Part shown: piece after piece, positions 20,894 through 26,271 of the stretch
How positions within the stretch are numbered: the first letter of the stretch is position 1
Layout of the letters: each line of letters starts with the position of its first letter
From: Candidatus Acetothermia bacterium
Lineage (GTDB): Bacteria; Bipolaricaulota; Bipolaricaulia; Bipolaricaulales; Bipolaricaulaceae
Assembly: GCA_003562845.1 (NCBI GenBank)
Contig: PWTL01000050.1
Coordinates: forward strand, 1-48,518
DNA: 48,518 nucleotides
Direction: 5' to 3'
Notes under the pieces: generated by a model
Databases searched by the model: none
Seen by the model: only the letters and a program-made list of their open reading frames with translations
Told to the model about the DNA's origin: nothing
Made by a program: the position numbers and the translations under genes

Positions 20894-21553
20894 GTGGCCG
20901 GGATGGATCACTTGCAGGAGCTGGCCGATCAGCTGCGGGGTTTCCCTTCCGCCGAGCTGCGGCAACGGCTGACCGAAGCTGCACTGCCCCTGGTCGAGGA
21001 GGTGGTCGACGAGTTCGCCGCCAGCGGCAGGCCCCGGGAGGCTTTGCTCCGTGCAGGGCACCTCGGACTGCTGAACGCCGTCAGCAATCTGAACCTGGAC
21101 AGGCGGGGGGACTTCGCCGCGTTCGCCCGCGACCTGATACGCGGTGAAATACGCGCCTCCGTTCGTGAGGAGTTCGCCGCTCCGCAGCCCCCTGCCTGGC
21201 TGGAGACGCTGGGCGAACACCTCGACATCGCCCATCGCCAGCTGGCCGGCGAGCTCGGTCGCCCTCCCTCATTGCCCGAGCTGGCGGACCGCCTGAACCT
21301 GAGCGAAGAGGGCTTGCGGGAGGCGTTCAAGGCGCGGGCCACGTTTCGCTACACTTCGCTCGGCCAACGCCGGCGCTCCACAGATCCCCAGCCTCACTTC
21401 CGCCCCGAGGAGGTGCAGGAGGCGACCCCCACCGGTATCCCCTGGCCGGCGCGGGCCCGGTTGGCGCAGGCCCTACGCCGCCTGCAGAGCTTGGCCGAAA
21501 GGTTACTAGAGCAGCTATTCCACGGCGGAGGCAGCGGGGGGGACGGTGAGTAG
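20894..21553 (+). CDS. Sigma-70 family protein lacking region 4
   Basis: A 219-residue protein (or 216 from ATG 20903). Residues 30-95 match sigma region 2 of the SigB/SigF/FliA type (LLRAGHLGLLNAVSNLNLDRRG, then FARDLIRGEIRASVREE); 105-160 match region 3 (RQLAGELGRPPSLPELADRL, LSEEGLREA, FRYTSL). Region 4, needed to bind the -35 element, is missing: after LAQALRRLQSLAERLLEQLF the protein ends in a GGGSGGDGE tail. No frameshifted region 4 is seen downstream. It could be a partial sigma that needs a partner, an antagonist, or a decaying gene. It lies just upstream of the c-di-GMP-controlled locus. Confidence 0.7.
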   Translation: MAGMDHLQELADQLRGFPSAELRQRLTEAALPLVEEVVDEFAASGRPREALLRAGHLGLLNAVSNLNLDRRGDFAAFARDLIRGEIRASVREEFAAPQPPAWLETLGEHLDIAHRQLAGELGRPPSLPELADRLNLSEEGLREAFKARATFRYTSLGQRRRSTDPQPHFRPEEVQEATPTGIPWPARARLAQALRRLQSLAERLLEQLFHGGGSGGDGE

Positions 21554-21594: not shown

Positions 21595-21623
21595 TTGACA
21601 CACTTGGTTACCCCCCGTATACT
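21595..21623 (+). promoter_or_regulatory. Strong sigma-A-type promoter for the riboswitch transcript
   Basis: A perfect TTGACA, 17 bases, then TATACT (5 of 6). Transcription should begin near 21630, a few bases before the riboswitch aptamer. The 40 bases upstream are unusually AT-rich and contain an AGTGTT/AACACT inverted pair that could be an operator. Confidence 0.85.
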
Positions 21624-21635
21624 AGTTGCTGTAGG

Positions 21636-21716
21636 GTGAACGAAAAGGCAAACCCGGGGCGACCTGGGGGCGCAAAGCTCAGGGCCTCCGCATCGAGGAG
21701 GTAGCCGGGCTGCCGA
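21636..21716 (+). ncRNA. c-di-GMP-I riboswitch (GEMM-I class)
   Basis: The aptamer matches the GEMM-I layout by eye. GGCAAACC is at 21647-21654, then a CGGG/CCTG stem capped by a GCGA tetraloop, then CGCAAAGC at 21671-21678, a CCTCC/GGAGG helix, and GGTAGCCGGG followed by CTGCCG. The tetraloop, the CGCAAAGC junction and the GGTAGC segment are the conserved parts of the Vibrio Vc2 type aptamer that binds cyclic di-GMP. It sits between a strong promoter and a terminator, so it most likely controls the next gene by premature termination. Confidence 0.9.
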
Positions 21717-21748
21717 AACACCTCCAAAACACTTAGGAGGTGTTTTTT
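21717..21748 (+). terminator. Intrinsic terminator of the riboswitch, containing the ribosome site
   Basis: AACACCTCC and GGAGGTGTT form a perfect 9-base stem with a 10-base loop and a run of six T. The 3' arm includes the Shine-Dalgarno AGGAGG of the next ATG (21750), so the hairpin would block both transcription and translation. The 5' arm ACCTCC can instead pair with GGAGGT at 21697-21702 inside the aptamer helix; this gives a simple antiterminator. Ligand binding would keep the aptamer helix and free the terminator (off switch), by inference. Confidence 0.88.
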
Positions 21749-21749
21749 G

Positions 21750-22244
21750 ATGAGGAAGTGGATGGTAGTAGGGACAATACTGGCGATGGGGCTCGTGTTC
21801 GCCGTGAGCGGCGGCGCGGACAGCGCGACCGGAACGACGGACGTCACGTGGAGCGCGCAGACGTTCATCCAACTGAACATCGACGACCAAGACGTTGACC
21901 TGGGCGAGATCAGCGGGGATCTGTACGACCCAGGCGCAGACTCCTGGAACAACTTGGAGAGCACGGGCCACAGCGGGTGGGTCCTGAGCAACAGCCCAGG
22001 CGGGTTCACCCTCACCGCCACCGCGGCCAACGCCAGCGGCTTTGAACAAGCTGACCTCAGCAGGTTCTCGATCACCGGCTGGACTGCAGGCTGGCACTCT
22101 CTCGAGGGCACAGTGACCCTGGGCAGCCGTACCGGACCGGGCCGAGAGAGCATCGAGGACATCGGCTATCGGTACGAGCCGAGCTTCGACGACGCGCCGG
22201 GCGAGTACCAGGTGGTCGTCACGTTCACCGCGACCACGCAGTAG
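21750..22244 (+). CDS. Small secreted beta-rich protein under c-di-GMP control
   Basis: 164 residues, signal peptide MRKWMVVGTILAMGLVFAVSG with cleavage near SGGADS-AT, and a mature part without Cys that alternates polar and hydrophobic residues (beta sandwich-like). It ends with GEYQVVVTFTATTQ, a closing strand reminiscent of pilin-like, spore coat U-like and WxL-like surface proteins; no close family recognised. ATG is chosen because AGGAGG lies 9 bases upstream; a TTG immediately before it is less likely. Being directly behind the c-di-GMP riboswitch, it is probably a surface or matrix subunit. Confidence 0.78.
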   Translation: MRKWMVVGTILAMGLVFAVSGGADSATGTTDVTWSAQTFIQLNIDDQDVDLGEISGDLYDPGADSWNNLESTGHSGWVLSNSPGGFTLTATAANASGFEQADLSRFSITGWTAGWHSLEGTVTLGSRTGPGRESIEDIGYRYEPSFDDAPGEYQVVVTFTATTQ

Positions 22245-22318: not shown

Positions 22319-23347
22319 ATGAGACGAGCAAGCCTTACAGCAGCCCTGCTGGTCGCCGCGCTGGCCACAAGCGGAGTCGCGCTGCAGATAACACAGCTGG
22401 AGTTTCAGTTCACCCTCAGGCCGGGGGAGGAGCGCCAGTTCTCCTTCCAGGTGCGAAACGACGGGCAGAGTACCCAGCGGATCAGCACGGAACTCGGCGA
22501 TTGGGAGAGAACACCCACGGGGGAGCACCGCTTCCTGGAGCCGGGTACTCTCCCCCGATCGTTGACCGAGTGGCTCGAGGTGTACCCGCGCTCGTTCACC
22601 TTAGGGCCGGACGAAGTACAAGAAGTTTCCGGCACCTTGCGCATCCCCTCTTCCGACCACCACCCAGTCGGGGGTTCCCACTGGGGGATCATCTTTGTCC
22701 AAGGCGAACCACGCCTCCAGGAGCACGAGGGAACAATGGTCCTGGCCGTGGAGAGGTTCGGGGTGAAGGTGCTCGTGGACCTCCCCCCCAGGGAGCGCGC
22801 CGCTACCATCGGTGCACTGAACGCTAAGGGCCTGAACCCCCTGTGGGTGGAGATCGAGGTGTCAAACACGGGAAACACAAACCTCCCCTCCATCGAAGGC
22901 CAGGTCACGGTGTACGACGAGACCGGCGAAGAGCTGGGACGCTACGACTTCGCCCGCTTCCCCTGTCTCCCCGGCGCAGAGCGCAGGGTCCGGGTGGACA
23001 CTGGTCTTCGGCTCACCGAGCCCGGAGACTACAACGTCCTTGTCACGGTGGACGCGGGAGTGGACCACCTCATCGCCACACAGCGCATGGTGCGAATCCG
23101 GCGGTTGGCGTTGCAGCCCTTGCAAGACGACTGGGGCGTCCCCCAGGACCTGTCGGGGGACGGGCTATACGAGGACGTGCTGGGAGATGGCTCGTTTCAC
23201 CAAGGGGACGTAGACGCCCTGGCCGAGCACCTGTACCGTCCCGCGGTGCAGCGCAATTGGCGGGCGTTCGACTTCGCCAACGATGGCCAAGTGGGAGAGC
23301 TGGACGTCTCCGCTCTGCAGGCGATGCTCGACGCCCAAGGCGGGTGA
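22319..23347 (+). CDS. Secreted chaperone-like Ig-fold protein with dockerin-like C-terminus
   Basis: 342 residues. Signal peptide 1-21 (RASLTAALLVAALATSGVA). Residues about 25-150 resemble the first domain of DUF916/PapD-like periplasmic chaperones: TLRPGEERQFSFQVRNDG, then WLEVYPRSFTLGPDEVQEV and SGTLRIPSSDHHPVGGSHWG. A second Ig-like domain (about 160-260) has VSNTGNTNLPSIEG. The last 70 residues contain two calcium-loop repeats, DLSGDGLYEDVLGDG and FDFANDGQVGELDVSAL, like a type I dockerin pair. I infer that it escorts or anchors the upstream small secreted protein. Confidence 0.72.
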   Translation: MRRASLTAALLVAALATSGVALQITQLEFQFTLRPGEERQFSFQVRNDGQSTQRISTELGDWERTPTGEHRFLEPGTLPRSLTEWLEVYPRSFTLGPDEVQEVSGTLRIPSSDHHPVGGSHWGIIFVQGEPRLQEHEGTMVLAVERFGVKVLVDLPPRERAATIGALNAKGLNPLWVEIEVSNTGNTNLPSIEGQVTVYDETGEELGRYDFARFPCLPGAERRVRVDTGLRLTEPGDYNVLVTVDAGVDHLIATQRMVRIRRLALQPLQDDWGVPQDLSGDGLYEDVLGDGSFHQGDVDALAEHLYRPAVQRNWRAFDFANDGQVGELDVSALQAMLDAQGG

Positions 23348-23421
23348 CCCGCGCACCGACGTCCATCTCCTGAGGTAAACCGGTCCTGCCGACCGCGGCC
23401 ACGCCGAGATAGCCTGTGCGT

Positions 23422-26271
23422 ATGCGCGCGCTTGTCTCCTTGCTCGTCTGCATTGGGTTCGGGCTTGCTGCCCAGGCGCTCACTGTGCGGGTCACCTCGC
23501 CGCCCCGCACGGTGGAACCTGGAGACGTGGCGCTGCACGTGTTCCGTCTGGAGAATCCTCAGGACAGCACCCTGGGAGTCGATCTGTCAGTAGAGCTCCC
23601 GCAAGGGTGGAGCGTGCTGCCCATCGCCCCGCAGCTCACGTTGGACCCCGAAGACGCGGCCACGGTGTTCGTCACCGTGCAGGTTCCCCCGGCGGCCGGA
23701 GCAGGGGAGCATGACATCCTGCTGGCCGCACGTTGGAACAGCCGGGAGGCCACGGCCACCGCACGGGTAACCGTGCGTCAGGTGGCACAAGTCGCCATCG
23801 ACGTCCCCGCAGAGAAGAGCATCTCTCCCGGGGGATCGGTCTCCTACACCTTCACGGTGAGTAACCGCGGGAACGCAGTGGATCGGTACACCGTCAGTGC
23901 GGACTCGGCAAGGAGATACACACTGCGCGTCGACCCGCGAGAGTTGTCTCTGGCCCCTATGGAACGAGGGACAGTCACTGTGGAGGCAGACATTCCCCTC
24001 ACAGCTGACGCCGGGCGGGATAGGCTGCTGCTCATTGTCCGTTCCACTGCCGCTCCGGCCGTGGAGCGAGAGGTCGCCTTGTTCACCACGATCCTCCCGC
24101 CTGGCCCGGAGCTGATAGTAGGGCACACCCTCGCCGAGGTGGACACACAGCTCGGTGGCCGGTTGGAGTTTGACCTCCTGAACGATCAGCGGCAGTCCTC
24201 ACTGTTCTTCTCTGGGCGCACCTCTCTCCTCGACGGCGTGCTCTCCTTCTCGGTGCGGGCGAGCGGGCCCTGGGGAGCTCCTCCCCTGGACGTGGATAGA
24301 GTGAGCCTGGCGTACACACACGACCAGGCACGCGTCCGCGCCGGAGAGTTCACTGTGCCCTTGGCTCCTCTCTCCGGGCTCAGTGGGTCGGGCGTCGCTG
24401 TGGAGTTCCTGCAAGGGAGAGCGTCCCTGTCCTTGGCCAGCGGGTGGCACGAGGGAGAGGGGCGGTTCGGGGGGACGGTCACCGTCCGCGGCAACGCGTG
24501 GGAACTGGGCACCGTGTACAGGGAAACCAGGGGAGAGGACGAACACCGCCGAGCGTTGGCCGGCCGGGTCACCCACTTCCTCGGGGAACACGTAGAGTTC
24601 GAGCTGGCAGCCAGTCTGGCCCTGGAGCCCCCCATCCTAGAGGAGGGCCTCCGGGCGGCGCTGCGCGTAGAAGTCGAGAGAGTAGCTTTCCTGGGCCTCT
24701 CCTGGCACTCTGTGGGGGGCGCCGTCCCCAGCCCGCTGGCCGGAGAGGAGGGAGTCAGCGTGTCCGGCCGTCTAGCATCCGCCCCCCTCGGCTTTCGCTT
24801 CGCCTGCCGCTGGGTCCGGGACAACCCGCAGCAGCACACAACTGAGGGGAACGCCTCCCGGGTTGAGCTCTCCTCGGCCACGGACTGGGCCCCGGAAGAA
24901 TGGCCGCTGGCCTTCTTCGGAAGCTTCTCTGGGCGAAGGGAGTGGGACGGAGAGGGCACCGCACTGGAGAGGGTTCGGGAAGCCCACCTGGCAGTGAGCG
25001 GCAATGCGGAGCCACTGGCCTTCCACCTGTCGGGAACCTTGCGCACAGACGAGGAGTTGCCCAACGGCCACATCGTGTTCCGCACGGCATACGAGCAACG
25101 GTTTACCCTGTCCGGAGAGTTCGTGCAGGGCACTCTGTCCCTCAGGCAGCAGGCCGCGTTTGACCCTCCGGGAGATCCTCTGGAGCGTGGCTGGGAAGTG
25201 GGCCTGTCTGCCCGCCTGGTGGACATGCCCTACCGCCTGACCCTGAGCTGGACTCACGACAGCCCGGACGTGGAGGCAGAGCTGGACTTGCAGGGGCCGC
25301 TCACCGACAGCTTCAGTGCAGGGCTCACCGCGGCAGCCCACTGGAACGATCAAGGGGAAGTTGCATCCCTCCGCTTGGGGCTCGCCTTCGAGCATGTCTT
25401 CTCCTGGACACCGCCCTTTCTCCCCGCCCGGGGCTGGTTGGAGGGAAGTGTGTTGGCTGACGGTCGCGGCGTGGAAGGGGCCGTGCTGGCCACCGCCGGC
25501 CACAGAGTTGCCACCGATGCGGAGGGCCGTTTTCTGTTCCCTCCGTTGGCCCCCGGGGAGTACTCTGTCGCCATTGATCGGCTGCCCTTCGGGGTACGCG
25601 CATTGGAACCCGAGCCCGTGGAAGCAGAGGTCGAACTCGACAAGCGAACGCACATCGTCATCCACTGCGAGCTGCTGGCCGAAGTGCGGGGGCTCGTGTT
25701 CGACGACCGCGGCCAACAGGGCGAGCGCCATCCGGACGATCCGGGATTGGGCGGAATCACCGTGACGTTACTGGAGAAGTCAGAACCGGCGGAACGCACG
25801 ACCACCAACAGCGCAGGCCGCTTCTCCTTCTCCCACCTGTCCCCCGGGAACTACACCCTACGACTGGAAACAGACAGCCTGCCCCTGCGCTATGAGGCCA
25901 CCACTCCCACCCAGCGCGAGGTCAAACTGGAGCAGGGTGCTGTGGCCGAGGTCGAGTTTGGCGCCTGGCAACGACCACGGGAAGTGGTGGTCGCCCCGGC
26001 GCCTCCCCTGGCGGACTTCGCCTGGGAGCCCCCCGTCCCCCAGGCCGGGGACAGCGTCACCTTCGACGGTCGCCTCTCTGCCCCGGGCGATTCTGACATC
26101 CTCGCCTACAGGTGGGATTTCACCGACGATGGGGAGATCGACGCTACGGGGAGAGAAGCGATCTGGACCTTCTCCGAACCTGGAGTGTACTGGGTGACGC
26201 TGACCGTGGAGGACGAACTGGGTCTGCAGGACGAGCTAACCCTCCCCCTGGAAGTACTGCCCGCGGAGTGA
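23422..26271 (+). CDS. Large secreted multi-domain protein: NEW3-like, beta-rich core, CnaB-like, PKD
   Basis: 949 residues from ATG 23422 (a GTG two codons earlier is possible). Signal peptide RALVSLLVCIGFGLAAQA. Two NEW3-like Ig domains (about 20-215; VEPGDVALHVFRLEN and SPGGSVSYTFTVSNRGN). Residues about 215-690 are a long run of alternating beta strands, suggestive of an outer membrane barrel or usher. Two carboxypeptidase-regulatory/CnaB-like domains follow (LADGRGVEGAVLATAGHRVATD; GGITVTLLEK with TNSAGRFSFSHLSPGNYTL). A PKD domain ends the protein (FDGRLS, YRWDFTDDGEI, YWVTLTVEDE). Usher-like assembly platform or surface scaffold is inferred from order and context; there is no direct homology to FimD that I can see. 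Confidence 0.7.
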   Translation: MRALVSLLVCIGFGLAAQALTVRVTSPPRTVEPGDVALHVFRLENPQDSTLGVDLSVELPQGWSVLPIAPQLTLDPEDAATVFVTVQVPPAAGAGEHDILLAARWNSREATATARVTVRQVAQVAIDVPAEKSISPGGSVSYTFTVSNRGNAVDRYTVSADSARRYTLRVDPRELSLAPMERGTVTVEADIPLTADAGRDRLLLIVRSTAAPAVEREVALFTTILPPGPELIVGHTLAEVDTQLGGRLEFDLLNDQRQSSLFFSGRTSLLDGVLSFSVRASGPWGAPPLDVDRVSLAYTHDQARVRAGEFTVPLAPLSGLSGSGVAVEFLQGRASLSLASGWHEGEGRFGGTVTVRGNAWELGTVYRETRGEDEHRRALAGRVTHFLGEHVEFELAASLALEPPILEEGLRAALRVEVERVAFLGLSWHSVGGAVPSPLAGEEGVSVSGRLASAPLGFRFACRWVRDNPQQHTTEGNASRVELSSATDWAPEEWPLAFFGSFSGRREWDGEGTALERVREAHLAVSGNAEPLAFHLSGTLRTDEELPNGHIVFRTAYEQRFTLSGEFVQGTLSLRQQAAFDPPGDPLERGWEVGLSARLVDMPYRLTLSWTHDSPDVEAELDLQGPLTDSFSAGLTAAAHWNDQGEVASLRLGLAFEHVFSWTPPFLPARGWLEGSVLADGRGVEGAVLATAGHRVATDAEGRFLFPPLAPGEYSVAIDRLPFGVRALEPEPVEAEVELDKRTHIVIHCELLAEVRGLVFDDRGQQGERHPDDPGLGGITVTLLEKSEPAERTTTNSAGRFSFSHLSPGNYTLRLETDSLPLRYEATTPTQREVKLEQGAVAEVEFGAWQRPREVVVAPAPPLADFAWEPPVPQAGDSVTFDGRLSAPGDSDILAYRWDFTDDGEIDATGREAIWTFSEPGVYWVTLTVEDELGLQDELTLPLEVLPAE

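Follow-up and report, generated by a model that had tools for sequence, protein, structure and literature searches.

A c-di-GMP-I riboswitch with a predicted ON-type dual expression platform in front of a predicted surface-fibre operon of a Candidatus Acetothermia bacterium

What a riboswitch does for the cell hinges on its sign, and the question raised by the leader described here is whether c-di-GMP would open or silence the genes behind it. The leader lies in a 48,518-nt stretch of contig PWTL01000050.1 (the window), to which all coordinates refer; the features of the leader and its operon are on the plus strand. In the first-pass annotation of this DNA, ligand binding was taken to favor a terminator and to shut off both transcription and translation. 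Comparison with 25 related switches reverses this obvious reading, and the annotated mechanism probably errs in both its central step and its sign.

The leader begins with a sigma-70-type promoter, TTGACA-N17-TATACT (21595–21623), composed of TTGACA (21595–21600), a 17-nt spacer, and TATACT (21618–21623). With 11 of 12 matches, it is the sole promoter-like site in the 1.5 kb between 20900 and 22400, compared with a mean of 0.2 in shuffled sequences, and transcription is expected to start near 21630. Directly 3′ of the promoter sits a c-di-GMP-I (GEMM-I) aptamer (21637–21717), which matches RF01051 with 59.5 bits (E = 3.1e-9, model positions 1–87) against a gathering cut-off of 35 bits. The core motifs are present, namely GGCAAACC at 21647, CGCAAAGC, and GGTAGCCGGG, together with a GCGA loop (21659–21662) that caps P2 (21653–21658/21663–21668); P3 is placed by the aptamer layout around CCTCC (21685–21689) and GGAGG (21697–21701). 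The element is predicted to bind c-di-GMP. While the full-length model match, the conserved core, and the P1-P2-P3 layout are shared with RF01051, the family consensus has a GAAA loop and a CUAAG/UAUGG-type receptor, instead of the GCGA loop and plain CCTCC:GGAGG helix of the window. Among relatives, loop and helix seem to pair up into these two kinds. The flanks of the core form the closing helix P1, in which GGGTG (21634–21638), overlooked in the first-pass annotation, pairs with CACCT (21719–21723) over 5 bp, one of them G·U.

The aptamer runs into a putative intrinsic terminator (21717–21748), consisting of AACACCTCC (21717–21725), a loop, GGAGGTGTT (21736–21744), and six T (21743–21748). 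The stem is 9–11 bp long, and when extended to 13-nt arms it is 92% complementary. Its 3′ arm carries the AGGAGG Shine–Dalgarno (SD) sequence (21735–21740), which is kept in relatives, and CACCT in its 5′ arm is the anti-SD. Given that the stem ends at 21744 and the ATG lies at 21750, the terminator stops less than 10 nt before the start codon with the ribosome-binding site in its 3′ arm, a layout that supports the earlier proposal of one hairpin acting as both terminator and SD sequestrator. Promoter, aptamer with GCGA tetraloop, and T-tailed hairpin had likewise been recognized correctly. A simple terminator scan found no match at the leader because the 10-nt loop exceeds its 8-nt limit, which is no evidence against a terminator. 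Dinucleotide shuffles of the leader fold less stably than the leader itself (z = −2.35). In addition, when P1 is formed, part of the SD could be masked by a second hairpin (AAAACAC 21726–21732/GTGTTTT 21740–21746); this hairpin is absent from the corresponding loop sequences of three related loci, L038, L133, and L145.

The regulated gene (21750–22244) encodes a 164-aa secreted protein with a signal-like N-terminus and a predicted pilin-like β-sandwich (AF model pLDDT 74, weak pilin matches in fold comparison), for which Pfam and NCBIfam returned no family. The open-frame list starts this gene at TTG 21747, and ATG 21750 has normal SD spacing. A WxL domain, considered for the family on account of W-x-L motifs and the WxLIP neighbor, found no support in Pfam, which gave no match on four other members. 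Downstream are a 342-aa protein (22319–23347) with two Ig-like domains, closest to WxL-interacting protein and PapD-chaperone-like folds (model pLDDT 63.5, low TM-scores), and a dockerin-like tail, and a 951-aa surface protein (23416–26271) in which Pfam finds PKD, SdrD_B, and carboxypeptidase-regulatory domains. The target is most likely an operon for a surface fibre or adhesin, and c-di-GMP would then turn on an adhesin-like operon, matching the part it usually plays in attachment. The gene immediately before the switch (20894–21553) encodes a SigB/F-like sigma factor of 219 aa that has regions 2 and 3 and no match for region 4; this gene is conserved beside the switch at L131, and it is kept with its neighbors at L100.

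The direction of the switch depends on which strand competes with the terminator. The strand 21719–21723 is common to the P1 and terminator helices, and in 26 of 26 SD-hairpin platforms the 5′ flank of the aptamer is complementary to the anti-SD, with many compensatory changes; the spacing is almost constant, the complementary stretches starting 7–10 nt before and 3–5 nt after the core. When flanks were exchanged at random among loci, the observed mean energy was not reached in any of 2000 permutations (19 loci), nor was the observed mean helix length in any of 5000 (26 loci), with again 0 of 5000 on 17 non-redundant loci. P1 is kept at L038 and L133, where A–U replaces the G·U of the window. 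Against this, the P1 of the window is equaled by 4.8% of shuffled flanks, and at a few loci (L110, L107, and L070) P1 has only 4 bp.

In GEMM-I aptamers, ligand binding stabilizes P1. Since the P1 3′ strand is also the terminator 5′ arm, a closed aptamer excludes the terminator, and ligand should block termination, giving an ON rather than an OFF switch. The sequence analysis shows the aptamer, the hairpin, its overlap with the SD, and the covariation of P1; on this basis the leader is likely to be a c-di-GMP-I riboswitch whose dual expression platform follows ON logic, with the ON sign expected at both levels, transcription and translation. In the proposed mechanism, CACCT would pair alternatively with GGGTG (P1) or with GGAGGTG (21736–21742, terminator). 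Without c-di-GMP, the terminator would win, so that most transcripts stop at the T run and AGGAGG is buried in any mRNA that reads through. With c-di-GMP, bound once the aptamer is made, P1 would be locked before the SD arm emerges; no hairpin would form, RNA polymerase would go on, and the SD would be free. GGDEF domains are encoded in the genome.

The opposite sign would follow if GGAGGT in the P3 3′ strand (21697–21702) paired with ACCTCC (21720–21725) as an antiterminator without ligand, and ligand, by stabilizing P3, released the terminator to stop both steps, as annotated at first. The complement is indeed exact over 6 bp in the window and strong at L038, with duplex energies of −11.0 kcal/mol for P3:anti-SD vs −7.8 for P1 in the window and −14.0 vs −8.5 at L038; moreover, aptamer and terminator co-exist in the Cd1 GEMM-I switch, which is OFF (PMC9262584). 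The match is strong in these two leaders because CCTCC is both a strand of P3 (CCTCC:GGAGG) and the anti-SD, and its switching role did not hold up: permuted pairings were as good in 1204 of 2000 (19 loci), 2682 of 5000 (26 loci), and 3544 of 5000 (non-redundant loci) trials, which reveals no covariation. Nor is GGAGGT kept, as the P3 strand reads TTGAGGC at L133 and CCGAGGA at L145, both of which have the hairpin ACACCTCC...AGGAGGTG unchanged; at L133, P3:anti-SD pairing is down to about 4 bp with terminator and SD identical. This reading also leaves out P1, a helix that would retain the anti-SD when ligand is bound. In folds of the growing transcript with 3′ ends at 21726–21736, the deciding lengths, the native aptamer with P1 is best (−38.1 kcal/mol), and the P3 pairing is 2.4 kcal/mol worse (−35.7). 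Pairing of P3 with the anti-SD as the main mechanism was thus rejected by the permutation and conservation tests, and an OFF switch of this kind appears improbable. Once the SD arm has emerged, the terminator is best (−50.2 vs −44.2 kcal/mol for the P1 fold), and because of this difference of about 6 kcal/mol, the preferred ON switch needs both ligand and timing.

Another reading is an ON switch at the level of translation only, in which the hairpin hides the SD and the T run fails to terminate because of its weakness or its closeness to the gene. A T run of at least five is absent in most of the 26 related platforms, which must then act on translation alone. Directly after the stem, however, there are 6–7 T in the window, L038, L133, L145, and L101, and five in three others; the T run is thus kept within the genus, and for the window this reading seems rather unlikely. 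As for the ligand, position 21647, which we take to be the specificity position equivalent to G20 of Vc2, is a G, the core is otherwise conserved, and diguanylate cyclase domains are encoded in the genome, all of which speak against another cyclic dinucleotide, 3′,3′-cGAMP. Although natural cGAMP-sensing GEMM-I variants exist (PMC9481103, PMC9262584), it is very improbable that the aptamer of the window is one of them.

Dual platforms and ON-type GEMM-I switches are both known already, and the element of the window is a member of RF01051 that would combine them. The closest parallel for the shared strand is the pilM switch of Geobacter metallireducens, which is ON because P1 and terminator have a strand in common; its P1 is seen only with ligand, and ligand-stabilized P1 prevents termination (PMC9262584). 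pilM senses cGAMP, and the switch of the window differs from it in that the terminator 3′ arm is also the SD. A ribosome-binding site in the 3′ side of a terminator near the start codon is a feature of the dual platforms described by Barrick and Breaker in 2007 (PMC2258182), whose account is a general one for other riboswitch classes and makes no mention of GEMM or c-di-GMP; the switch of the window, in contrast, is of the c-di-GMP-I class and predicted ON. Bc1 of Bacillus thuringiensis is a c-di-GMP-I riboswitch with transcription–translation dual regulation, as predicted here, but it has two terminators apart from the ribosome-binding site and exerts opposite effects on the two steps (PMC11218506), whereas in the window a single hairpin is predicted to act in the same direction on both. 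What is surprising is the sign, reversed relative to the first-pass annotation, along with the homologous targets and the nested aptamers described below.

The platform is found again in a relative of the same genus and in other Bipolaricaulota. The draft genome of the window (1.45 Mb) has six c-di-GMP-I matches, and such matches are found in 57 of the 60 genomes of the relatives search. In a genome of the same genus (G001), the orthologous leader (L038/L131) has the promoter, aptamer, hairpin, SD, and T run conserved (GGCTGCCGAAACACCTCCCAACCAAACAGGAGGTGTTTTTTTATG). At L133 and L145, from a genome of another genus in the same family (G004), conservation covers the end of the aptamer, the hairpin, the SD, and the T run; the conserved aptamer core of the latter two reads GGCTAAC, not GGCAAAC. 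When 84,980 species genomes were scanned for the aptamer end with the SD hairpin, 15 contigs were returned. The closest relatives with the platform are recorded publicly as Candidatus Acetothermia or Bipolaricaulota, and a few matching MAGs carry other submitter labels (Caldisericota and Neomarinimicrobiota). In the open-access literature searched, no article was found that mentions 'riboswitch' and 'Bipolaricaulota' together.

Switches before homologous secreted genes in these genomes appear to carry both signs. We read 91 distinct GEMM-I elements, and in roughly 40% of them the aptamer is followed at once by a potential start codon. This count is indicative, as the automatic platform sorting is rough and some terminator-type and truncated elements ended up in this start-adjacent class. 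In many of these start-adjacent elements, the start codon or SD lies within the P1 3′ strand, and such elements should be OFF. One homologous secreted family stands behind ON-type, OFF-type, and nested elements (36 of the clustered first open frames), and the genome of the window has all three, with signs as predicted: the switch of the window (ON), contig C97 (L002, OFF), and contig C46 (L001, nested). In several genomes (for example at G024:C15, G012:C43, G005:C1, and G006:C9), OFF-type and ON-type elements are 0.6–0.7 kb apart. Elements of opposite predicted sign at this distance, each before homologous secreted genes, were noted at L027 (1511 and 2083, minus strand), L031, L117, and L121. 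We tentatively propose, as one possible arrangement, a reciprocal circuit in which one messenger swaps homologous subunits of surface fibres through opposite-sign switches on related secreted genes of the same genome, some with nested aptamers. In this little-studied phylum, c-di-GMP-I switches would control homologous secreted protein families with both predicted signs.

At some loci, elements that look like tandem aptamers appear from their sequences to be nested. The P3 helix of one aptamer seems to enclose a second aptamer at L001, L018, L021 (twice), L022, L023, L068, and L125, such that the 3′ half of the outer aptamer (GGTGGCCGAGCTGCT) comes after the second, complete aptamer; the L001 pair is at 1430–1620 in contig C46. 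In an alignment of seven sequences, to which the nested structure was fitted by eye and on which pairing was counted directly, 95% of cells are paired with 14 doubly changed pairs, a level reached by none of 500 shuffles, and the helix spanning the inner aptamer is 91% paired with three doubly changed pairs. The structure proposed by RNAalifold for these loci has a local hairpin instead of P3 at the 3′ end. To our knowledge, no precedent for nested c-di-GMP-I aptamers has been described. The open-access literature searched returned nothing for 'riboswitch' together with 'nested aptamer', and a 2022 survey of tandem riboswitches gave no match for 'nested'.

Other targets recur behind these aptamers as well. 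Genes for S8 subtilisin-like proteases, recognized by motifs in their translations, begin 2–19 nt behind the aptamer at L019, L026, L032, L034, L036, and L067, and are predicted to be OFF because P1 is near their start codon or SD. Behind a c-di-GMP-I aptamer, a small conserved protein of about 105 aa (MQVTLYYSDEDQYL...) is encoded at L004 (contig C82 of the window genome), L056, L107 (at 409), and L116, and several of these loci have a terminator-like sequence complementary to the aptamer 3′ strand and are predicted to be ON.
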